64,000 bases of DNA from Actinophytocola gossypii (lineage in GTDB: Bacteria > Actinomycetota > Actinomycetes > Mycobacteriales > Pseudonocardiaceae), in the NCBI RefSeq assembly GCF_025165815.1, contig NZ_JAFFZE010000017.1, positions 1 through 64,000 of the forward strand, read 5' to 3'. Below the pieces are notes generated by a model. It ran no database searches, was not told the DNA's origin, and worked only from the letters and a program-made list of their open reading frames with translations. Positions within the stretch are counted from its first letter, which is position 1, and every line of letters begins with the position of its first letter. Of the stretch, positions 22,247 to 34,814 are shown piece by piece. The position numbers were made by a program, and so were the translations under genes.

Positions 22247-22267
22247 TAGTATCGAACAGGCGTTCGA
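22247..22267 (+). promoter_or_regulatory. Perfect LexA (SOS) box and -10 element before imuA'
   Basis: TCGAACAGGCGTTCGA (22252-22267) matches the actinobacterial/mycobacterial SOS consensus TCGAAC-N4-GTTCGA with no mismatch. A -10-like TAGTAT (22247-22252) overlaps its left edge, so LexA would block the polymerase. A 5' leader of about 60 bases with GGGGAGG follows. Confidence 0.9.
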
Positions 22268-22318
22268 GTTGTGTGCTGCCTTCCCCGCGGCGCGTGCGGA
22301 GTCGTAGGGGAGGCAGGT

Positions 22319-23314
22319 ATGCGGATGCCGGCGTTGGGTGCGTCGCTGGCCACTTCCGGTGCGGTCGGGGTGGCCAGCGACCTGACGACGGCGCCGTCCG
22401 GTCGGGTGCGGATGCTACCCGTGCATCCCGACCTGGCGGCTCTGTTCCCGTGGGGCGGTCTGCGCCGGGGGAGCACGGTGTCCGTGCGCGGCTCCACGTC
22501 GTTGCTGCTGGCTCTGCTGGCCGAGGCCACCGCGGGTGACTCCTGGGCCGCCGTGGTCGGCCTGCCCGACGTGGGCATGGTCGCCGCGGCGGAGCTGGGG
22601 GTGGCGGTCGACCGGGTGGCCCTGGTGCGTAATCCCGGCGCCGAACATCCCAGGGTGGTGGCGGCGCTCCTGGACGGCATGGACCTGGTGGTCACCGCCC
22701 GCGGCCGCCTGACGGATGCGCAGGCGCGTCGCCTGTCGGCCCGTGCCCGCCACAGAGGTGCCGTCCTCCTGACCACCGACCCCTGGCCCACCACCGACGT
22801 GGACCTGTACCGCACCACCACCCACTGGTCCGGCCTGGGCGAAGGTCACGGCCACCTCACCCACCGCGAGACCACGATCCGATCCCAGGGTCGAGGCGCC
22901 GCCACCCGCCCGGTCCACGTCGCTCTGCAACTTCCCGGCCGTGCCGGTGCCGTCGCTCCCGTCCCGGCGCCCCACCTCCACCGAGTCCGCGCCGCGAGTC
23001 CCCGCGTGATCCCCCGCACGGCGCCCGTTCCCAACCCGCGAGTCCCCCGCTCGCAACGCCGAACCCGCCGAACCGGAACATCGGAATCACCGGACGGCAG
23101 CGCGTCTCTCGTCGGACGGCAGTGTGGGGCTCGCGGAGTTCGCGAGCCCGTACACGTGCGAGTCCCACGTCGCGTCGCGCGAGTGTCCACGTCGTGCGTT
23201 CCCGGTGCGCGAGTTCGGCGTTCGTGGGTCGTGTCGGGGCGTGTGCGGGTGCTGTCGCAAGGGCTCCGCGCCTCTCCGGTGAAGGCGTTTGACACCCTCC
23301 CTGATCGAACGTAA
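22319..23314 (+). CDS. imuA': ImuA'-like mutasome protein (RecA-fold) with unusual C-terminal extension
   Basis: 331 residues from ATG 22319, with GGGGAGG 5 bases before it. The first 220 or so residues resemble actinobacterial ImuA' (Rv3395c type): LFPWGGLRRGSTVSVRGSTSLLLALLAEA is a RecA-like P-loop region without a canonical Walker A, and PWPTTDVDLYRTTTHWSG follows. In mycobacteria it works with ImuB and DnaE2 in damage-induced mutagenesis. Residues beyond about 225 are Arg/Pro/Val-rich, look non-homologous and read through palindromic DNA (hairpin 23127-23149). The native stop may have been lost. A perfect SOS box lies upstream. Confidence 0.8.
   Translation: MRMPALGASLATSGAVGVASDLTTAPSGRVRMLPVHPDLAALFPWGGLRRGSTVSVRGSTSLLLALLAEATAGDSWAAVVGLPDVGMVAAAELGVAVDRVALVRNPGAEHPRVVAALLDGMDLVVTARGRLTDAQARRLSARARHRGAVLLTTDPWPTTDVDLYRTTTHWSGLGEGHGHLTHRETTIRSQGRGAATRPVHVALQLPGRAGAVAPVPAPHLHRVRAASPRVIPRTAPVPNPRVPRSQRRTRRTGTSESPDGSASLVGRQCGARGVREPVHVRVPRRVARVSTSCVPGARVRRSWVVSGRVRVLSQGLRASPVKAFDTLPDRT
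23127..23149. other. Hairpin inside the imuA' 3' extension
   Basis: GGGCTCGCG (23127-23135) and CGCGAGCCC (23141-23149) form a perfect 9-base stem with a 5-base loop. It lies in the part of the reading frame with no family match, together with degenerate GCGAGT/GTTCC motifs like those at 19911-20010. It looks more like intergenic repeat DNA than coding DNA. Confidence 0.5.
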
Positions 23315-23323
23315 GTTCGAAAC
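23289..23323 (+). promoter_or_regulatory. imuB promoter with second perfect SOS box; predicted leaderless start
   Basis: The -35 TTGACA (23289-23294), a 17-base spacer and the -10 TAAGTT (23312-23317) form a near-consensus promoter. LexA box TCGAACGTAAGTTCGA (23305-23320) overlaps the -10 and has no mismatch. The start of transcription should fall about 7 bases after the -10, at or next to the A of the imuB ATG (23324). No Shine-Dalgarno can fit, so the mRNA is probably leaderless. Confidence 0.85.
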
Positions 23324-24898
23324 ATGAACAGCAACCGGGCACCGCATCGCATGCTCGTCGTGTGGTGTCCGGACTGGCCGGTGACCGCCGCGAGCGCGGC
23401 GGCCGCGGCACTCCCACAGCGGCCTGTCGCAGTGGTCACCGGCACCCTCGTCGTCGCGGCGAACGCGTTGGCCAGGTTCGAGGGCGTCCGCCGCGGGATG
23501 CGGCGGCGTGAGGCGCAGGGCCGTTGTCCCGAACTCACCGTCCTCCCCGACGACCCCGACCGCGACGCCCGGCTGTTCGAACCCGTCGCCGCCGCGGTGG
23601 AGGAACTCGCGGTCGGCGTCGAGATCGTCCGGCCCGGCATCGTCGCCGTGCCGGCGCGTGGTCCGGCCGGTTACTTCGGCGGTGAGGAGGTCGCCGCCGA
23701 GCGCATCATCGACCAGGTCGCCACCCGCACCGGCGCGGAGTGCCAGGTCGGCGTGGCCGACGGCCTGTTCGCCGCCGTCCTCGCCGCCCGGCGCGGCCTG
23801 GTCATCGCCCCCGGCGCGACCCCGGAGTTCCTCGCCCCGCTGAGCATCCGCGAGCTGCACCGCCCCGCCGAGGCCCAGGACCGCGCCGAACTGGTCGACC
23901 TGCTCCGCCGCCTCGGCCTGCGCACGCTGGGCGCGTTCGCCGAGATCCCCGAACGCGACATCTCCGCCCGCTTCGGCGCCGACGCCGTCCAGGCGCACCG
24001 ACTGGCCGCCGGCCGCGAGGAACGCCCACCCGCCCGTCGCGCCCCACCGCCCGAGCTGACCGTCACCGAACCCCTCGACCCCCCGGTCGAACGGGTCGAC
24101 GCCGCCGCGTTCGTCGCCCGCCACCTGGCCGAACGCCTGCACACCGTCCTCGCCCGGCACGGCCTGGCCTGCACCCGCCTCGCCATCCACGCCGCCACCC
24201 CCGCCGGCGAGGAACGCGAACGCGTCTGGCGCTGCGCCGAGCCCCTGACCCCGAACGGCATCGCCGACCGGGTGCGCTGGCAACTCGACGGCTGGCTCCG
24301 CGACACCAGGCTCTCCGCCGGCATCACCAAGCTGACCCTCACCCCCGTCGAGGTCATCGAGGGCACCACCCTCCAACTGGACCTGTGGCGCGGCGAAGGC
24401 CGAGCCGAGGCCGACGAACGCGCCGCCCGAGCGATGGTCCACGTCCAGGGCCTGCTGGGCCCCGAATCCGTGGTCACCCCCGTCCTCGGCGGCGGCCGCA
24501 CCCCCGCCGAACGGGTCCACCACGTCCCCTGGGGCGACGAACGCGTCCCCGCCGCCACCCCGAACGCGCCCTGGCCAGGTCGCGTACCCCCGCCAACCCC
24601 CGCCACGGTTCCTCCGGTTCCGTTACCCGCCACCCTCACCGACCCAGGCGGGCGCCCCGTCTCCGTCACCGCTCGCGCCGAGCTGACCGCGCCCCCCGCG
24701 CACCTGTCCTGGAACGGCCGTCGACGCCCGGTGGTCGCCTGGTCCACCCCCTGGCCCGCGGACGAACGCTGGTGGACCGAGCCCATTCACCGCACGCGCC
24801 TCCAACTGGTGGTAGCCGAGTCCGAAAAGGACAGCCAAACCGCGCTCCTCCTCACCCTCACCGGCGAAAAGTGGACAGTAGAAGGGATGTACGACTGA
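23324..24898 (+). CDS. imuB: ImuB: Y-family polymerase homologue of the SOS mutasome
   Basis: 524 residues. It is a Y-family DNA polymerase relative (LVVWCPDWPV at the start, little-finger region at about 250-350). The acidic active-site residues of true Y-family enzymes are not where expected, as in mycobacterial ImuB, which acts as an adaptor rather than a polymerase. QLDLW at about 351-355 fits a beta-clamp-binding motif (mycobacterial form QLPLW). It bridges the clamp, ImuA' and DnaE2. It has its own SOS promoter 3 bases upstream and overlaps the next small ORF by one base. Confidence 0.92.
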   Translation: MNSNRAPHRMLVVWCPDWPVTAASAAAAALPQRPVAVVTGTLVVAANALARFEGVRRGMRRREAQGRCPELTVLPDDPDRDARLFEPVAAAVEELAVGVEIVRPGIVAVPARGPAGYFGGEEVAAERIIDQVATRTGAECQVGVADGLFAAVLAARRGLVIAPGATPEFLAPLSIRELHRPAEAQDRAELVDLLRRLGLRTLGAFAEIPERDISARFGADAVQAHRLAAGREERPPARRAPPPELTVTEPLDPPVERVDAAAFVARHLAERLHTVLARHGLACTRLAIHAATPAGEERERVWRCAEPLTPNGIADRVRWQLDGWLRDTRLSAGITKLTLTPVEVIEGTTLQLDLWRGEGRAEADERAARAMVHVQGLLGPESVVTPVLGGGRTPAERVHHVPWGDERVPAATPNAPWPGRVPPPTPATVPPVPLPATLTDPGGRPVSVTARAELTAPPAHLSWNGRRRPVVAWSTPWPADERWWTEPIHRTRLQLVVAESEKDSQTALLLTLTGEKWTVEGMYD

Positions 24899-25098
24899 TG
24901 CCAAGGGACCCCCGATCCTGCCGCGAATGCCGAACCCTGGACGGAAGCTGCAGACAGTTCGTCATCGGCCACCCCGACCCGGTGTGCGTCGCCGGCTACC
25001 CCAGCCACCGGCGGCAACCGGTCAACCCCGACCTGTTCGGCCTCGACCTGCTGATCCCAGCCCCACGCCGTTCCCCGGAGAACGCCCGCACCCACTGA
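24898..25098 (+). CDS. Small Cys-rich protein between imuB and dnaE2 (unknown)
   Basis: 66 residues from ATG 24898, which shares one base with the imuB stop. Cys8, Cys11, Cys18, His25 and Cys30 could bind a zinc ion (C-x2-C-x6-C-x6-H-x4-C). The C terminus contains NPDLFGLDLLIP, whose DLFGLDLL part resembles a hydrophobic docking or clamp-binding peptide. I know no named family. Its position in an SOS-induced transcript with imuB and dnaE2 suggests a mutasome accessory factor; this is inference. Third codon positions are mostly G or C, in line with a real gene. Confidence 0.65.
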   Translation: MPRDPRSCRECRTLDGSCRQFVIGHPDPVCVAGYPSHRRQPVNPDLFGLDLLIPAPRRSPENARTH

Positions 25099-25106
25099 AG
25101 GCGCCC

Positions 25107-25859
25107 ATGAACCATCCCCCCGCCGAGACGGTCCACAACGGACAAAGCGACGTACCGTTCCCGCACCTCCCCACACCGCGCTCCGCGCCACCCACACCGC
25201 GAGCAGCGCCACCGCCGCGAGCAGCGCCACCCACACCGCGAGCAGCGCCACCACCCGCACGCCCGCCCGCACCGCGATCCGCCTCATCACAACCCGCGCG
25301 CCCGCCCGCGTTGCGACCCGTGCCACCACCGCCGCGACCCACGCGACCACTCACACCGCGACCCACATCGCGAGCTGAGCGGCCGTCCGTCCCGCCACCA
25401 CCCGCTCCGCACCCACCCGCGCCACCGCCGCGAGCTGTGCCGCCGCTCGCGCCGTCCTCCGCGCACCATTCCGCATCGCGGTCCGTGCCGTCCCCTTCCG
25501 TGTCGGAAACGGCGCCATCGTCGCGACCTGTGCCGTCCTCCCCGTCCGCGCGCCCTTCCGCGTCCCGACCCGCAGCGCCGCGATCCGTGCCACCGTCCGC
25601 ACCTTCTACCGCGCCTCCTTCCGCGTCGCTGCCCGTGCCGCCGTTCGCGCCCGCGCCCGTGCGTCCTCCCGCGTCGCGATCCGCGCCGCCGCCTGTGCCG
25701 TCCTCCGCGCCTCCGCTCCCGCCCGCGTCGCCTTCCGCGGTCCCAGCCAGGCCGGAACCAGCCCCGGGCTCCTGGCCCCGCTCCGCCATCACCACCCACC
25801 GGGCCATGATCCAGGCCGCCATCTGCGCCGCCATCCGCCCGCCGACCGGAACCCCCTGA
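25107..25859 (+). CDS. Proline/alanine/serine-rich ORF between imuB and dnaE2
   Basis: 250 residues, almost wholly Pro, Ala, Ser and Arg, with repeated PPTPRAAPP- and PSA-like units. Only the first 20 and the last 30 residues (from about 220, with the helix-like ITTHRAMIQAAICAAI) look ordinary. It begins 8 bases after the small Cys-rich ORF and ends with TGA sharing its A with the dnaE2 ATG, so it sits in the operon. The DNA is a simple CCGCGA/GCGCCACC repeat, and other frames are open too. It could be a disordered linker protein or an expanded non-coding spacer. Confidence 0.4.
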   Translation: MNHPPAETVHNGQSDVPFPHLPTPRSAPPTPRAAPPPRAAPPTPRAAPPPARPPAPRSASSQPARPPALRPVPPPPRPTRPLTPRPTSRAERPSVPPPPAPHPPAPPPRAVPPLAPSSAHHSASRSVPSPSVSETAPSSRPVPSSPSARPSASRPAAPRSVPPSAPSTAPPSASLPVPPFAPAPVRPPASRSAPPPVPSSAPPLPPASPSAVPARPEPAPGSWPRSAITTHRAMIQAAICAAIRPPTGTP

Positions 25860-28800
25860 TGGGCTGGAACAACCCCCCGGTCACCTGGTCCGAACTGGAA
25901 CGCATCCTCTCCGGCCGCCCACCCGACCCGCCCGGCGACGGCGGCGACAGCCCCGCATGGACCAGACGCCGCGAGCGCTACACCGCCCCCGCCGGCGGCG
26001 GCGCCCCCGAACCCACCGACCTCGCCGGCGCCGACACCCGCGTCCCCTACGCCGAACTCCACTGCCACTCCAACTTCAGCTTCCTCGACGGCGCCAGCCA
26101 CCCCGAGGAACTCGTCGAGTCCGCCGCCCTGCTCGGTCTCGACGCGCTCGCCATCACCGACCACGACGGCATGTACGGCGTCGTCCGCTTCGCCGAGGCC
26201 GCCCGGGAGCTCGGCGTGCGCACGGTCTTCGGCACCGAACTCTCCCTCGGGCTCAGCCAACCCCAGAACGGCGTCGCCGACCCGGAAGGCGAGCACCTCC
26301 TCCTGCTCGCCACCGGCACCACCGGGTACGGCCGCCTCTGCCGCGCCATCACCTCCGGCCAGCTCGCCGACCACAGCGAGAAAGGCCGCCCGGTGTACGA
26401 CCTCGCCGAGGTCGCCGAGGAGACCCGGGGCGAGTGCGTCGTCCTGACCGGGTGTCGCAAGGGCGCGGTCCGAACAGCACTGACCCAGGGACCACAGGCG
26501 GCCTTCGAGGAACTCAACAAGCTCGTCGACCTCTTCGGCCACGACCACGTCTTCGTCGAGCTGATCGACCACAACCTCCCGCTCGACACCGCGCACAACG
26601 ACCTGCTCGCCGAGCTGGCCCTCGAACTCCACCTCCCGCTCGTCGCCTCCAACGCCGTGCACTACGCCCAGCCCAACCGGGGCGACCTGGCCGCCGCGGT
26701 GGCCGCCGTGCGTGCCCGCCGGTCGCTCGACGAGCTGGACGGGTGGCTCCCGCCCGCTCCCACCGCCTACCTGCGCTCCGGCGCCGAGATGGGCCGCCGC
26801 TTCGCCCGCTACCCGGGCGCGGTGCACCGGGCCGCCATGCTCGGCCTCGAACTGGCCTTCGACCTCAAGCTCGTCGCGCCCGAGCTACCGCTGTTCGAAC
26901 GACCCGGCCACACCGAGATCAGCTACCTGCGCGAACAGACCTACGCCGGCGCCCGCCTGCGCTACGGCACCGAGGACCAGAACCCGAAGGCCTACGCCCA
27001 ACTCGCGCACGAGCTGAAGGTCATCGAGGAGCTCAACTTCCCCGGCTACTTCCTGATCGTCGCCGACATCGTCGACTTCTGCCGCCGCAACGGGATCTAC
27101 TGCCAGGGTCGCGGCTCGGCCGCCAACTCCGCGGTCTGTTACGCGCTGGGCATCACCAAGGTCGACGCGGTCCGCTGGGAGCTGCTGTTCGAACGCTTCC
27201 TCGCCCCCGCCCGCGACGGCCCGCCCGACATCGACATCGACATCGAGTCCGACCGCCGTGAGGAGGTCATCCAGTACGTCTACGACCGCTACGACCGCCG
27301 GCACGCCGCCCAGGTCGCCAACGTCATCACCTACCGTGCCAAGTCCGCGGTGCGCGACATGGCCCGCGCGCTCGGCTACTCGCCCGGCCAGCAGGACGCG
27401 TGGAGCAAGCAGATCGACCGCTGGGGCCCGCTGAAGTCCACAGTGGACGACAATGACCACGACGTGCCGGTGCAGGTGCTGGAACTCGCCGGGCAGCTGG
27501 AGCAGTTCCCCCGGCACCTCGGCATCCACTCCGGCGGCATGGTCATCTGCGACCGCCCGGTCAGCGAGGTCTGCCCGGTCGAACGGGCCAAGATGGACAA
27601 CCGCACGGTCCTGCAGTGGGACAAGGACGACTGCGCCGCCGCCGGCCTGGTCAAGTTCGACCTGCTCGGCCTCGGCATGCTCTCCGCGCTGCGGTACATG
27701 GTCGAGCTCGTCGCCGCGCACCACCGCACCGACGTGCGCATCGACGATCTCGACCTCGGTGACCCGCGCGTCTACGAGATGCTCGCCCGCGCCGACGCGA
27801 TCGGGGTGTTCCAGGTGGAGAGCCGGGCGCAGCTGGCCACCCTGCCCCGGATGAGGCCGAAGGAGTTCTACGACCTCGTGGTCGAGGTCGCGCTGATCCG
27901 CCCCGGCCCGATCCAGGGCGGCTCGGTGCACCCCTACATCCGCCGCCGCAACGGGCAGGAGCCGGTCACCTACGACCACCCGCTGCTGGAACGGGCGCTG
28001 GCCAAGACCCTCGGCGTGCCGCTGTTCCAGGAACAGCTGATGCAGATGGCCGTCGACGTCGCCGACTTCACCCCGGGCGAGGCCGACGAGCTGCGCCGCG
28101 CGATGGGCGCAAAACGGTCCACCTTCCGGATGGAGCGGCTGCGCGAGCGGTTCTACGACGGCGCGGCCGCGCACGGCATCGACGCCGAACTGGCCGAGCG
28201 GATCTACGAGAAGCTGATGGCGTTCGCCAACTTCGGCTTCCCGGAGAGCCACGCGCTGAGCTTCGCCTACCTGGTGTTCGCCAGCGCCTGGTTCAAGCTC
28301 TACTACCCGGCCGCCTTCTGCGCCGCACTGCTGCGCGCCCAGCCGATGGGCTTCTACTCGCCGCAGTCGCTGGTCGCCGACGCTCGCCGGCACGGGGTCA
28401 CCGTGCTCGGCCCGGACATCAACGCGAGCCTGCCGCACGCCACCCTCGAGGGGTCGGGGCCAGCGGTGCGCCTCGGTCTCGGCTCGGTCCGCACCCTCGG
28501 CGACGACCTCGCCGAGCGCCTGGTCGCCGAACGCGACACGCACGGCCCGTACCGGGACATGGTCGACCTGACCCGGCGAATCACCCTGACCAGGCCGCAG
28601 GTGGAGGCCCTGTCGACGGCCGGCGCGTTCGACTGCTTCGGCATCGGGCGCCGCGCGGCGCTGTGGTCCGCCGGCGCGGTCGCCGCCGAACGCCCCGGCC
28701 GGCTGCCCGGCACGACGGTCGGCGCGAGCGCGCCCGCGCTGCCCGGCATGAGCCCGCTGGAGCTGGCGGTCGCCGACGTGTGGGCGACCGGCCTGTCGCC

Positions 28801-29161
28801 GAACACGTTCCCCACCGAGTTCGTCCGCGAGCGCCTGGACGAGCTCGGCGCCGTCCCGATCGTCAAGTTGTCCGAAGTGGACGGCGGCACCCGGGTCCTG
28901 GTCGGCGGCGCGGTGACCCACCGCCAGCGCCCGGCGACCGCCGGCGGCGTGACGTTCCTGAACCTGGAGGACGAGACCGGGATGGTGAACGTGGTCTGCT
29001 CGCGCGGCCTGTGGTCGCGCTACAGCCGGATCGCGCGGAACTCCTCGGCGCTGCTGGTCCGCGGCCTGCTGGAACGCGCGGAAGGGGTGACGAGCCTGCT
29101 CGCCGACCACCTTGAGCCGCTGAACCTGAGCATCGCCGCCAAGTCCCGCGACTTCCGCTGA
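25859..29161 (+). CDS. dnaE2: Error-prone DNA polymerase III alpha subunit DnaE2
   Basis: 1100 residues, the normal size for DnaE2. The N-terminal PHP domain (about 60-330) has ELHCHSNFSFLDGAS and ITDHDGMYG. The polymerase active site includes PDIDID (456-461). Helix-hairpin-helix and OB-fold regions lie near the C terminus (GGAVTHRQRPATAGGVTFLNLEDETG). DnaE2 is the catalytic enzyme of damage-induced mutagenesis and needs ImuA' and ImuB. No separate SOS box was seen upstream, so it is probably transcribed from the imuB promoter. Start ATG 25859 overlaps the previous ORF by one base. Confidence 0.95.
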   Translation: MGWNNPPVTWSELERILSGRPPDPPGDGGDSPAWTRRRERYTAPAGGGAPEPTDLAGADTRVPYAELHCHSNFSFLDGASHPEELVESAALLGLDALAITDHDGMYGVVRFAEAARELGVRTVFGTELSLGLSQPQNGVADPEGEHLLLLATGTTGYGRLCRAITSGQLADHSEKGRPVYDLAEVAEETRGECVVLTGCRKGAVRTALTQGPQAAFEELNKLVDLFGHDHVFVELIDHNLPLDTAHNDLLAELALELHLPLVASNAVHYAQPNRGDLAAAVAAVRARRSLDELDGWLPPAPTAYLRSGAEMGRRFARYPGAVHRAAMLGLELAFDLKLVAPELPLFERPGHTEISYLREQTYAGARLRYGTEDQNPKAYAQLAHELKVIEELNFPGYFLIVADIVDFCRRNGIYCQGRGSAANSAVCYALGITKVDAVRWELLFERFLAPARDGPPDIDIDIESDRREEVIQYVYDRYDRRHAAQVANVITYRAKSAVRDMARALGYSPGQQDAWSKQIDRWGPLKSTVDDNDHDVPVQVLELAGQLEQFPRHLGIHSGGMVICDRPVSEVCPVERAKMDNRTVLQWDKDDCAAAGLVKFDLLGLGMLSALRYMVELVAAHHRTDVRIDDLDLGDPRVYEMLARADAIGVFQVESRAQLATLPRMRPKEFYDLVVEVALIRPGPIQGGSVHPYIRRRNGQEPVTYDHPLLERALAKTLGVPLFQEQLMQMAVDVADFTPGEADELRRAMGAKRSTFRMERLRERFYDGAAAHGIDAELAERIYEKLMAFANFGFPESHALSFAYLVFASAWFKLYYPAAFCAALLRAQPMGFYSPQSLVADARRHGVTVLGPDINASLPHATLEGSGPAVRLGLGSVRTLGDDLAERLVAERDTHGPYRDMVDLTRRITLTRPQVEALSTAGAFDCFGIGRRAALWSAGAVAAERPGRLPGTTVGASAPALPGMSPLELAVADVWATGLSPNTFPTEFVRERLDELGAVPIVKLSEVDGGTRVLVGGAVTHRQRPATAGGVTFLNLEDETGMVNVVCSRGLWSRYSRIARNSSALLVRGLLERAEGVTSLLADHLEPLNLSIAAKSRDFR

Positions 29162-30870: not shown

Positions 30871-33783
30871 TCAGGCCGGGCGCTCCCGGCCGGGGAGCTC
30901 GACGATGTGGCCGGCGGAGACGAGCTCGCCGATGGCTTCGGGGAGCAGGTAGGCGGTGCCGCCGCCGGGCTGGTCGAACCACGGGATCGCGGAGCCGGTC
31001 AGCACCTGCACCGGCTGACGGACCCGGTACGCGTGGTACGGCCGGTCGATCCACTCCGGCGGCAGCGAGCGCTCGGCGAACGGAGTGCTCAGCACGTAGA
31101 CCAGGTTCCCGTCGTCGTCGCCGAAGCGGTCGAACTCCATGCCCGGTTCGAGCTCCACCAGACGCTTGCCGCGGAACAGGGTCAGCGGCGGCTCACCGGG
31201 CAGCGGGCCGATCGGCCACTCCTGGTTGCCGCCGGCGGACGCCGCGCCGCCGCCCGAACCCGAGCCCGAACCCGCTGCCGAAGCCGGCCGGGCGATCGTG
31301 GTCGCGGGCTCCGGCAGCCGCTCGCCCCGGGGCGGGGAGTCGGTGTGGAACTCCGGCCGGGACGGGACGAACGGCGAGTCCACCCGCGTGGCGTCGGCAC
31401 CCACCGGCTCCCGGTCGACCCGGGTCGGCTCGGAGCGCATGGGGTCACGCTGGATCTGGGTGGCCTCGGCGTGCATGGGGTCACGCGGGGCGTCCTGGCG
31501 CATCGGGTCGCGGTGCGGTGCGCCGAACGGGGAGTCCGGCCGCGGGTCGAAGCCCAGGTCGGGGCGTTCCGAGCGCGGGTCGAGCCCCGGTTCCGGGCGT
31601 TCCGAGCGCGGGTCGAACCCCGATCCCGGACGTTCCATGCGCGGGTCGAACCCTGGAGCTGAACGGTCCATGTGGGGGTCGAGCCCTGGTCGTTCCGAGC
31701 GTTGGTCGGGTCCTGGTTCTGGACGGTCCATGCGTGGGTCGAATCCCGGGCGTTCTGACCGCGGGTCGAACCCTGGTTCGGGACGGTCCATGTGGGGGTC
31801 GAGCCCTGGGCGTTCCGACCGTGGGTCGAACCCTGGTTCGGGACGGTCCATGTGGGGGTCGAATCCTGGTCGTTCCGAGCGTTGGTCGGGTCCTGGTTCT
31901 GGACGGTCCATGCGTGGGTCGAACCCCGGGCGTTCCGAACGTGGATCAAGCCCTGGTTCCGGGCGTTCCATGCGGGGGTCGAGTCCCGCATCGGGGCGTT
32001 CCATGCGTGGATCGAGTCCCGGTTCGGGACGCTCCATGCGCGGGTCGAATCCCGGTTCCGGGCGTTCCATGCGCGGGTCGAAGCCCGGTTCGGGACGCTC
32101 CATGCGCGGGTCGAAACCAGGTTCGGAGCGGTCGCCGAACGGGTCGAAGCCCGGTTCCGGGCGGTCCGACCGGGTGGGGTCGTACGCGCCGTTCTGCCGG
32201 TCGGGGAGTGGGGGCTCGAAGCCGCCGTCCCGGTTCGGGCGGTCGAAGTCGTCCTGGTGGGGGTCGAACCGGCCGCCGCCGTCGAACGCGGGGTCGAACT
32301 GGTTGGCACCGGAGCCGAACGGCGAGTCCGGGCGCTCCATCATCGTCGGCGGGTCGAAACCGCGGTCGACCGGCGGGCTGAGCTGCGTCTCCGCCAGGTC
32401 CGGCGTCGGCTCGGGACGGTCGAAGCCGCGCGGAGAGTCGGGTCTGCGCGGTGGCTCGGGCGCCCGGCGGTCGGGCGGTGTGAACCCCGGCGCCATCCCG
32501 TTCGACAGGGCGAAGTCGCCCGGGTCGTCACTCGGCGGCGGCACCGGGCCGGGCATCGCGGGCGGCGGGGGCGGCGCGCCGGCGGACTGCCACCGGTCGG
32601 CGTCCAGCAGCAGCTTGCCCAGCAGGAACGCCGACGCGTCCGCGACGTCCTCGAACATCGCGGGCGCCACGAACTCGCGGTCGAACCAGCCGACCCGCCA
32701 GCCGTCCTCGGTCTGGTCCATCGTCCACGCCCGGCCGGTCGGCGGACCGATCCGGTACGCCGTCCCCGGGATCCCCAGCTCGTCCAGCCGCGTCCGCAAC
32801 GCGTCCACGGTCCGCCCGGGCGGACCCTGCGACGGCAACGCCGCCGGCGGCGGTCCACCAGGCCCACCAGGCCCACCCGGTCCGCCAGGAACCGGCAGCG
32901 CCCGCGTCGGCGCGGGCGGCGGTGGCGGTGCCGGCGGCGGCTGCTGCACCCGTGGCCCGCCAGGTCCCGGCCCGGCCCCCAGGAACGCCGCGGCCGCCGA
33001 GCGCGTCGCGTCGTCCACCATCGGCACCTGGAAGTGCCCGCGCACGATGTGCTCCACCAGCTCCGGCTCCGGTGCCACGTCGTGCTCACGCAAGTAGTAG
33101 TTCACCGCCGCCGGCCAGATCCACGTGCCGTCGGTGTGGAACGCCACCGGCACGGCCGGCCGTCCGTCCGGGTCGAACCGGTCGATGTCGTACCCGCGCG
33201 CCGGCCCGACGACCGGCGCCGAGTCCAGGTACCGCAGCACGTCGCCCAGGTCGTCGTGGTCCACCGGCGGCCGGTTCACCGAGGGCCGCCCGTCCTCACC
33301 CGGCGGACCGTCGAAGATCCGCGCCACCCGGAACCTCGGCGCGGGCGCCGACGAGAGCCGCCGACGCAGCCACGCCGGCACGTTGTCCTCCGTACGGGGG
33401 AACAGCCGCATGTCGTCCGGGTAGGCCTGCGGCGGGGGCGGGTTGTCCCACGCCGGCTCCTCCCGGTCGTACTCCAGGTTGTAGCTGGACGGGTGGTCGA
33501 GCCGGTACCTGGCGTTGAACCAGGTCCCGCGCCCCTCGCGGTACATGCCCCCGCGCAGGCGGGCGAACAGGCCCTGCAGGTCGGCGGGCATCGTCCACGG
33601 CTCGGTGCCGCCGTCGGAGAAGACGACCTGCCCGGTCGCCTCCGAGTAGCGGCCGACCGCCCGGTAGTCGATGGTCAGCCGCTCCCAGTCGTCGGGGGCG
33701 ACCCGCAGCATGGCCAGCCCGATCTGCTTGACCAGGGCGTCCTGCTCAGTGGGGGTTAGCTGGGTCGGTTGTGCCACGCTCAC
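30871..33783 (-). CDS. TNT (NAD+ glycohydrolase toxin) domain protein with long tandem repeats
   Basis: 970 residues from GTG 33783 (GGGA 6 bases upstream). Residues about 1-130 resemble immunity-type YezG-like folds (GTWFNARYRLDHPSSYNLEYD); a second region runs to about 220. A Pro-rich linker, another small domain (about 328-395) and about 230 residues of ERPEPGFDPRM-type tandem repeats (about 535-760) follow. The C-terminal 105 residues match the TNT domain of mycobacterial CpnT, an NAD+-cleaving toxin: LFRGKRLVELEPGMEFDRFG, then WFDQPGGGTAYLLPEAI, with the catalytic-type Gln at 938. No signal peptide or WXG100 partner is seen, so the secretion route is unknown. No separate immunity gene is adjacent. 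Confidence 0.8.
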   Translation of the reverse strand: MSVAQPTQLTPTEQDALVKQIGLAMLRVAPDDWERLTIDYRAVGRYSEATGQVVFSDGGTEPWTMPADLQGLFARLRGGMYREGRGTWFNARYRLDHPSSYNLEYDREEPAWDNPPPPQAYPDDMRLFPRTEDNVPAWLRRRLSSAPAPRFRVARIFDGPPGEDGRPSVNRPPVDHDDLGDVLRYLDSAPVVGPARGYDIDRFDPDGRPAVPVAFHTDGTWIWPAAVNYYLREHDVAPEPELVEHIVRGHFQVPMVDDATRSAAAAFLGAGPGPGGPRVQQPPPAPPPPPAPTRALPVPGGPGGPGGPGGPPPAALPSQGPPGRTVDALRTRLDELGIPGTAYRIGPPTGRAWTMDQTEDGWRVGWFDREFVAPAMFEDVADASAFLLGKLLLDADRWQSAGAPPPPPAMPGPVPPPSDDPGDFALSNGMAPGFTPPDRRAPEPPRRPDSPRGFDRPEPTPDLAETQLSPPVDRGFDPPTMMERPDSPFGSGANQFDPAFDGGGRFDPHQDDFDRPNRDGGFEPPLPDRQNGAYDPTRSDRPEPGFDPFGDRSEPGFDPRMERPEPGFDPRMERPEPGFDPRMERPEPGLDPRMERPDAGLDPRMERPEPGLDPRSERPGFDPRMDRPEPGPDQRSERPGFDPHMDRPEPGFDPRSERPGLDPHMDRPEPGFDPRSERPGFDPRMDRPEPGPDQRSERPGLDPHMDRSAPGFDPRMERPGSGFDPRSERPEPGLDPRSERPDLGFDPRPDSPFGAPHRDPMRQDAPRDPMHAEATQIQRDPMRSEPTRVDREPVGADATRVDSPFVPSRPEFHTDSPPRGERLPEPATTIARPASAAGSGSGSGGGAASAGGNQEWPIGPLPGEPPLTLFRGKRLVELEPGMEFDRFGDDDGNLVYVLSTPFAERSLPPEWIDRPYHAYRVRQPVQVLTGSAIPWFDQPGGGTAYLLPEAIGELVSAGHIVELPGRERPA
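31500..32180 (-). repeat. Coding tandem repeats (42-60 base periods, 180-base duplication)
   Basis: Units encode variants of DRPEPGFDPRSERPG. Periods of about 42-45 and 60 bases are visible. The 57 bases from 31685 recur exactly 180 bases later (31865 onward), which shows a recent higher-order duplication. The region lies in the linker of the TNT-domain protein. Confidence 0.85.
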
Positions 33784-33869
33784 ATCTTCCCTTGTCGCTC
33801 CGCCAGCGGCTCGGTACGCACCTGAGCCGCTGTCCACCTTCGCAGAACCGTGGGCGAGGATGTCGACAC

Positions 33870-34814
33870 GTGATCTCCTCACCGCACCATCCGCCCGCAC
33901 GTGCACGGGTCGCGGGCGCCGCCCTCGCCGCGCTCGGCGGGGTGGCACTCGCTGTTCAGGGCCGCGTCAACGGCCAACTCGGACAGCTCATGGACGACGG
34001 GGTCTTCGCCGCTCTCATCTCCTTCGGCGTCGGCGCCGTGCTGCTGGCGGTGGCCGTCTCCTTGACCCCGTCAGCCCGCGCCGGTCTGCTCCGGCTCCGA
34101 AACAGCGTACGTGGTGGACGGCTCCGTGTCTGGCAGTGCCTTGGCGGCGCCTGCGGTGCGTGGTTGGTCACCACCCAGGGCCTCACGGTCTCGATCCTGG
34201 GTGTGGCGGTGTTCACGGTGGCCGTCGTCGCGGGGCAGACGGTGGCGGGGCTGGTGGTGGACCGCCGGGGCGTCGGCCCGGGGGAGGCCCGGCCGATCAC
34301 CCTCTCGAGAGCGGCCGGGGCCGGGATCGCGGTGGTCGCCGTGGTCGTCGCGGTGTCCGACCGGATCGCGCTCGGCGGTAGCGGCCTCTGGTGGGCGGTG
34401 CTGCCCGCGGTGGCCGGAGTGGGCCTGGCCTGGCAGCTCGCCGTGAACGGGCTGGTGCGGGTCGAGTCGGCGAACGTCGTGGTGCCGACCCTGGTCAACT
34501 TCGGCGTCGGCACCGTGGTGCTGGTCCTCGCCGCCGCCGTCGACCTGGCCGTTCGCGGCCTGCCGCGGCCTCCGCCGGATGACTGGTGGCTCTACATCGG
34601 CGGCGTGCTCGGCATCGTCACGGTGCTCACGGCGGTGGTGGCGGTGCGCTTCACCGGGGTGCTGCTGCTCGGCCTCGGCTCGGTCGCCGGGCAGCTCGCC
34701 GGGGCCGTGGTGCTCGACCTGGTGGCGCCCACGGCTGGTGGCCTGTCGACGACCAGCGTCGTCGGCGCCGCGCTCACCATGGTGGCGGTGGCCGTGGCCG
34801 CCGTCCGCCGGTGA
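33870..34814 (+). CDS. YdcZ/DUF606-type DMT-family membrane transporter
   Basis: 314 residues with about ten membrane helices in two inverted halves (first half NGQLGQLMDDGVFAALISFGVGAVLL, second half NGLVRVESANVVVPTLVNFGVGTVVL). The repeated N-G ... FGVGA/T pattern is typical of DUF606 (YdcZ) transporters of the drug/metabolite superfamily. The substrate is unknown. Start GTG 33870 has GAGGA about 10 bases before it. It is divergent from the TNT gene across 86 bases, and folD begins 12 bases after its stop. Confidence 0.85.
   Translation: MISSPHHPPARARVAGAALAALGGVALAVQGRVNGQLGQLMDDGVFAALISFGVGAVLLAVAVSLTPSARAGLLRLRNSVRGGRLRVWQCLGGACGAWLVTTQGLTVSILGVAVFTVAVVAGQTVAGLVVDRRGVGPGEARPITLSRAAGAGIAVVAVVVAVSDRIALGGSGLWWAVLPAVAGVGLAWQLAVNGLVRVESANVVVPTLVNFGVGTVVLVLAAAVDLAVRGLPRPPPDDWWLYIGGVLGIVTVLTAVVAVRFTGVLLLGLGSVAGQLAGAVVLDLVAPTAGGLSTTSVVGAALTMVAVAVAAVRR

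Follow-up and report, generated by a model that had tools for sequence, protein, structure and literature searches.

A small gene at the imuB 3' end in Pseudonocardiaceae is a candidate accessory member of the imuA'-imuB-dnaE2 mutasome cassette

A small ORF that begins on or next to the imuB stop codon is, at a probability that we put at roughly 60%, an accessory fourth gene of the imuA'-imuB-dnaE2 cassette of Pseudonocardiaceae, encoding an SOS-co-expressed microprotein that would dock through its C-terminal tail, probably on ImuB. Genome comparison shows the ORF to be tied to the imuB-dnaE2 locus, placed behind an SOS box and marked by an invariant C-terminal motif. Its relatives form a previously undescribed small-protein family of Pseudonocardiaceae. 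The mutasome drives stress-induced mutation in actinobacteria and is described as ImuA', ImuB and DnaE2 plus the clamp; a conserved fourth gene placed with them would give the complex a regulator in a large soil-bacterial family. The tiny size of such a gene, and its variability everywhere but in a ten-residue tail, make it easy to miss.

Layout of the locus and its SOS boxes

In the window, by which we mean the whole 64,000-nucleotide stretch of Actinophytocola gossypii DNA analyzed here, imuA', imuB and dnaE2 all lie in the same orientation (Table 1). The earlier note had proposed a 66-residue ORF overlapping the imuB stop, and we confirm it: the two genes share one base (TGATG). Both imuA' and imuB are preceded by perfect SOS boxes, scored against what we take to be the mycobacterial-type LexA consensus. 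Between the imuB box and the dnaE2 start there is no further SOS box with at most one mismatch, so transcription of the small ORF and of dnaE2 probably starts from the imuB promoter, and the box at 23305 would mark a promoter common to all three genes. With this box ahead of its transcription unit the small ORF is a putative member of the SOS regulon, its induction being predicted.

Table 1. Features of the mutasome locus, in coordinates of the window
Feature	Position	Strand	Basis or remark
SOS (LexA) box, TCGAAC-N4-GTTCGA	22252..22267	.	5' of imuA'; 0/12 mismatches, perfect
imuA' ORF	22271..23314	+	residues 58-208 match NF058630 ImuA', NCBIfam E 1.1e-52
SOS (LexA) box, perfect	23305..23320	.	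5' of imuB; 0/12 mismatches
imuB, inactive Y-family polymerase homologue	23324..24898	+	Pfam IMS E 3.7e-16
putative mutasome microprotein gene, 66 aa, ATG start	24898..25098	+	homologues and selection
Cys module, residues 8-30, CRECRTLDGSCRQFVIGHPDPVC	24919..24987	+	lineage-specific; four Cys in 4/5 readable congeners
tail motif LIPAPRRSPE, residues 52-61, conserved family-wide	25051..25080	+	alignment and position counts
760-base insert, small ORF to dnaE2, with short degenerate tandem arrays	25099..25858	+	arrays found in sequence
dnaE2, error-prone polymerase	25859..29161	+	NCBIfam NF004225 (PRK05672) error-prone DNA polymerase, 1487 bits

The small ORF and dnaE2 are 760 bases apart in the window; among the remaining four readable congeners the distances are -1, -1, 1 and 173 bases. 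Inserts of 760, 900, 467 and 173 bases are found at this site in four genomes (window; L048, L045, L036), and the site seems prone to expansion. A long frame that spans the insert (24927-25859) is not kept in relatives and was rejected. Downstream in the window, a long ORF on the minus strand (30871-33948) is rich in RPEPGFDPRME-type repeats; several one-mismatch SOS-like boxes inside it (e.g. 31766, 31826) are probably by-products.

Distribution in the family

Of the 200 family genomes searched, 176 have an ImuB match at E <= 1e-30; 127 of these were inspected at the imuB 3' end, giving 130 places. ORFs were called by script when they carried the motif [VIL]P.[PQ]R and started -4 to +9 from the imuB stop. 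The ORF is present at 79 of the 130 places (78 called by script, G166 added by eye), or at 87 when the eight displaced copies of genus g28 described below are added. Relative to the imuB stop, the 78 called ORFs start between -4 and +2, and an overlap with the last base of the stop is seen in 57. They encode 21 to 185 residues (mostly 21-92 aa, with three of the 78 longer). Where dnaE2 lies in the same stretch, the ORF stop falls within -14 to +5 bases of the start of dnaE2 in 62 of 72 ORFs. In the proposed check of homologues and their gene neighborhood, homologues at the same place, the imuB 3' end, recur across many genera.

The 43 places that lack the ORF divide into 27 in genera outside the ORF clade and 16 inside it (g17, 5; g4, 3; g9, 1; g25, 4; second imuB copies, 3). 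The ingroup absence rate is 16/103 places, and the small ORF is dispensable. A direct overlap of imuB with dnaE2 (gap -1 or -4) is found in the genomes examined from g17, g4, g9, g14 and g46, as well as in one of the four from g42.

A profile of 53 sequences (A1), to which many of the 200 searched genomes contributed rows, gave 65 matches with E <= 1e-4 in the same genomes, 63 at an imuB 3' end and two at imuB relics. All 65 lie behind imuB or a relic of it, in agreement with the expectation that orthologues sit beside imuB or dnaE2. Among the weaker matches (E > 1e-4), some are g8 members located at imuB and others are probably due to chance. Outside Pseudonocardiaceae, the motif was found in 0 of 40 imuB loci (three same-strand frames, mostly about 0.85 kb downstream). 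A profile search of 296 class genomes returned 15 with E <= 0.01. Two of these are family members; the other 13 have E-values of 2.6e-4 to 0.009 (about 3 expected), and in the 6 of them with a known imuB place the match is not near imuB.

In group g16 (L182:187-690, L195:141-695) the small ORF extends about 85 to 90 residues past the motif. This extension contains repeats of a unit like MSEAEARSRWNHP(T/S)NWHRR, which to the eye resembles WNNPPV at the start of DnaE2.

A conserved tail under purifying selection

The family-wide C-terminal motif is [LV][IV]PxPRR(S/A)P[E/D]. The N-terminal half is usually acidic and so variable that a single common fold is unlikely. Tails from other genera, in proteins that have no Cys module, include DLAELIPEQRRSPEN, LIPLPRRAPDEL, VIPLPRTSPENLG and WDLLETLIPLPRK. 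P54 and R57 are invariant in 53 of 53 aligned sequences. In the 78 ORFs, where the positions I/V/L, P, P/Q and R are fixed by the search pattern itself, I is found in 65, and the fourth place is P in 73 and Q in 5. Beyond the searched pattern, the next residue is R or K in 57 of 78, with P two positions further along in 44 of 78; E or D occupies the fourth position after the motif R in 75 of 77. Residues 2-6 include two or more acidic ones in 62 of the 78 ORFs, versus 23% expected from composition.

At about 70% GC, an open frame of such size carries little weight alone. The motif appears 0, 0, 1, 0 and 1 times in the other five frames of the 78 ORF stretches and in 63 of 3900 mononucleotide shuffles of them; by these controls its conservation is well beyond chance.

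To measure selection we calculated pN/pS in 11 genus groups, which together hold 57 of the 78 ORFs; small, very long and odd ones were excluded, including the Cys-less G115. Whole-ORF values by group are 0.40, 0.66, 0.20, 0.18, 0.48, 0.72, 0.58, 0.14, 0.64, 0.57 and 1.28, the last from g44, where two sequences with 10 differences are compared and the +1-frame control is 0.39. The motif itself gives 0.00-0.45 in ten groups (that of g44 has no differences), and the +1 frame gives 0.93-5.1 in the same ten. Since pN/pS of the ORF is low relative to the +1 frame, the gene codes for protein, and in 10 of 11 groups it is under purifying selection; by this measure the ORF is genuine. In most groups constraint is strongest in the tail, an exception being g16, where the rest is more constrained; outside the motif, values of up to 0.92 (g8) and 0.85 (g33) point to weak constraint.

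A fast-decaying or de novo ORF without function, held open by GC-richness and few stops, would fit the wide range of lengths, the poorly conserved N-terminal half, the several losses on the ImuB tree and the one group with pN/pS >1. Purifying selection in the other groups, the invariant P and R and the near absence of the motif from other frames stand against this reading, which we find barely credible and which the pN/pS values largely refute.

A lineage-specific cysteine module in Actinophytocola

Six genomes of Actinophytocola (g1) were searched and five are readable; G132 was left out, its dnaE2 reaching the contig end with no imuB found. All five have a small ORF that starts at the imuB stop or directly beside it, so the frame is kept in close relatives. 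Two named relatives turned up, Actinophytocola xanthii at 86% and A. algeriensis at 65%, and they are the ground for calling g1 Actinophytocola. The window ORF carries exactly the pattern C8-x2-C11-x6-C18-x6-H25-x4-C30 that had been reported for it. Conservation of the cysteines, proposed as support for a new subunit, holds in four of the five readable Actinophytocola genomes and hardly elsewhere in the family: at least three Cys are found in 6 of 78 family ORFs, 4 of those 6 in g1. Three of the five keep four Cys and the His, one has four Cys without H25 as the result of an in-frame deletion that changes the spacing of the last Cys, and one (G115) has no Cys. Among three Actinophytocola species the module shows pS of 0.39-0.50 and pN of 0.02-0.10 (27 codons), and on these values it is conserved at the protein level.

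As a hallmark of the family the Cys pattern was rejected, since homologues in other genera are without the module. Derivation of the module from another gene was likewise rejected on the matches away from imuB that were taken up as loci; when realigned, these look like chance and have no conserved Cys. The window's own genome contains a second weak match to the ORF (E 0.026). The N-terminal half could have been replaced in Actinophytocola by the four-Cys module, a candidate zinc or Fe-S cluster binder.

The segment DLFGLDLL, which had been read as a hydrophobic protein end that might dock on a clamp, is present but is not the end: it occupies residues 45-52 and is followed by 14 more residues, which hold the most conserved part, IPAPRRSPE. 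Docking on the clamp through DLFGLDLL does not hold up. The segment occurs in two of five congeners and so is no conserved clamp motif that would place the family among beta-clamp binders, and the segment conserved family-wide is instead [LV][IV]PxPRRSP[E/D], which we take to be unlike the beta-clamp-binding consensus. A Cys-rich mutasome subunit that docks on the clamp in this way is very improbable. The four cysteines of most readable congeners and the low pN of the module among three species speak for it; the scarcity of cysteines elsewhere in the family and the patchy occurrence of DLFGLDLL speak against it.

Copies parted from dnaE2 or from imuB

In two genera the cassette is broken up. 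In g20, 6 of 6 genomes have the ORF behind their main imuB copy, and dnaE2 lies 1.9-15.3 kb off in the five measured, behind its own SOS box (0-1 mismatches). In g28 the imuB-dnaE2 interval is 2.7-9.1 kb, and a perfect SOS box is located 0.9-1.0 kb before dnaE2 in 8 of 8 genomes. From an ATG inside that box runs, in all eight, an ORF of 55-59 aa that begins MFENFSSLSRSDRDMAQDLLAELIPRQRPPMDD and variants and carries LLAELIPRQRPPMDD or a close variant. Its pN/pS is 0.23, and 0.09 in DLLAELIPRQR, compared with 1.26 in the +1 frame and 0.85 in the 90 bases upstream. When 872 frames from the g28 intervals were scored with A1, this ORF took ranks 1-6 and, in a seventh genome, rank ten; that of the eighth genome is not among the best 22 of the 872. 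In the genome-wide A1 search, one of the eight copies reached E 0.1 (E 0.019). We regard the SOS-box ORF of g28, with moderate certainty, as a displaced homologue of the small ORF; the displaced copies lie nearer dnaE2 than imuB. A remnant directly behind imuB in one of the eight g28 loci (L038) ranked seven of 872 and was judged a coincidence, because the corresponding stretch of L041 does not encode it.

These arrangements bear on whether the ORF might only pass ribosomes from imuB to dnaE2, its CCGGAG-containing tail serving as the dnaE2 ribosome-binding site and its peptide being inert. Such a coupler would account for the start that overlaps imuB and for the position of the stop relative to dnaE2, and SPE codons can contain GGAG, as they do in the window. 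However, synonymous changes in the motif are many and non-synonymous ones few, and its IPxPRR part lies upstream of the possible Shine-Dalgarno sequence; the ORF is kept 1.9-15.3 kb from dnaE2 in g20 and has a gene of its own behind an SOS box in g28, and the long insert separates it from dnaE2 in the window. Because the ORF stays with imuB throughout g20 and has its own SOS box throughout g28, it appears to be more than a translational spacer, and we hold pure coupling to be quite unlikely.

Two related genomes retain relics of the locus (G021, L303:8700-9200; G059, L304:8700-9250). About 100 ImuB-C residues and the small ORF remain in them, most of imuB is gone, and the search left no DnaE2-like match (best 34-35% identical). 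By eye, these decayed mutasomes also hold a possible piece of imuA'. Between the two genomes the ORF has one synonymous difference and ImuB-C has 8 synonymous and 11 non-synonymous ones, too few to separate selection from recent decay.

Alternatively, the ORF might encode a small SOS-induced regulator that acts elsewhere than on the mutasome (e.g. on cell division or replication) and is a mere passenger of the operon. SOS-induced division inhibitors are known, and a regulator of this kind would suit the stand-alone SOS-box copy of g28 and the many genomes that have imuB beside dnaE2 and no ORF. Against it, by eye no membrane segment is present in the family sequences, and the ORF is between imuB and dnaE2 wherever both are placed, g20 and g28 included. 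The ORF beside an ImuB-C relic in G021 and G059, where dnaE2 is missing, is compatible with a mutasome role or with an outside target. We judge the latter unlikely.

Gain and loss on the ImuB tree, and a candidate contact in ImuB

In a tree of 70 ImuB rows (67 from the family, 3 from outside), the 37 rows with the ORF are all on one side of a 96/88 branch and the 3 outside rows on the other. ORF presence requires six changes if g28 is scored as lacking the ORF (0 of 500 shuffles as low) and five if it is scored as ORF-bearing. In a plain reading, one gain and about four losses fit this tree, parsimony by itself giving no polarity of gain and loss. The second imuB copies in L225, L226 and L227 (G126, G193 and G141; two genera) form one clade (100/100) and are without the small ORF; they are perhaps a transferred second mutasome.

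ImuB residue 310 (window 24251-24253) is P in 44 of 45 ingroup rows that have the ORF and in none of the 9 that lack it; of these nine, eight have A and one has E. The difference for this column is 0.98, the next best column reaching 0.64; it was picked post hoc from about 500 columns, with 4 independent pairs giving a sign test p of 0.125, and in outgroup ImuB, P occupies position 310 without the ORF in 11 of 16 rows. P310 is within CAEPLTPNGIADR, upstream of LQLDLW, the probable clamp-binding segment of ImuB, and should be in the Little Finger region. In an exploratory sense, this residue is a possible docking site for the tail.

A model for the microprotein

We propose that release of LexA would induce imuB, the small ORF and dnaE2 as a single message, and that re-initiation at TGATG would let the microprotein be made in step with ImuB. 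Its proline-arginine tail would then dock on a mutasome protein, most likely ImuB. By analogy with the small subunits of other Y-family polymerases, the peptide may tune the assembly or activity of ImuB-DnaE2; we favor a tuning role because the gene can be lost. Against the model stand the ingroup places that lack the ORF, the weak constraint outside the motif in some groups together with the very variable N-terminal half, the pN/pS values of g44, and the position and low A1 scores of the g28 copies.

A more specific and decidedly tentative version makes the peptide a fourth subunit of the actinobacterial mutasome. It would be disordered and SOS-made, with the PxPRR tail sitting on the ImuB Little Finger near P310 and gating access of DnaE2, similar to UmuD' or YolD and independently invented in one family; modules such as the Cys4 sensor of Actinophytocola would be grafted on its free end.

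The family illustrates how a single short motif can fix a small protein whose remainder is freely replaced, and the natural peptide would be a ready probe of ImuB and DnaE2 assembly.

Comparison with known systems

The ORF and its 53 aligned members have no meaningful match in Pfam or NCBIfam (best stray E 0.0053, one member), the PDB gives none at E <= 10, and five members searched against PHROGs and PADLOC gave none. No curated model assigns the small protein to the ImuA', ImuB, ImuB-C or DnaE2 families, and by sequence and profile similarity it belongs to neither UmuD nor YqjX-YolD. We found the ORF described nowhere in the open-licence literature, and the suggestion that it was undescribed stands on this and on the lack of a convincing family match. 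In the passages covered of a 2013 survey of SOS operons, which found SRAP and ImuB-C (PMC3765255), and of a 2026 survey that distinguishes 11 types of error-prone complexes (PMC12926913), the small ORF is not mentioned.

As portrayed in the portions consulted of PMC10421592, ImuB is a hub protein of the mycobacterial mutasome, and the window locus resembles this ImuA'-ImuB-DnaE2 type in its operon genes and SOS boxes; by taxonomy it would be of the ImuA2/ImuB2 type in the part of PMC12926913 that treats it. The mutasome described there comprises three proteins plus the clamp (PMC10421592, in the same portions), to which the window locus adds a fourth small coding gene. Like stand-alone ImuB-C and SRAP in the passages cited above (PMC3765255), the microprotein is an accessory found by its neighborhood with mutagenic polymerases. 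Those proteins are globular, with about 80 residues in ImuB-C and 220-260 in SRAP in the same passages (PMC3765255), whereas the microprotein is a peptide of mostly 21-92 aa with no similarity to them.

UmuD', YqjX/YolD and others are presented, in the passages covered of PMC12926913, as small subunits of Y-family polymerases whose unstructured arm, it is proposed, inserts into the polymerase, in the case of UmuD' between Palm and Little Finger. Our microprotein has no detectable sequence similarity to them, and no protease or YolD domain was found in it. It is like them, so far as those passages go (PMC12926913), in being a small protein encoded beside a Y-family polymerase, here an inactive one, and linked to SOS. 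The conserved element of the microprotein is C-terminal, whereas the arm of UmuD' and YqjX/YolD is N-terminal in the account given in these passages (PMC12926913).
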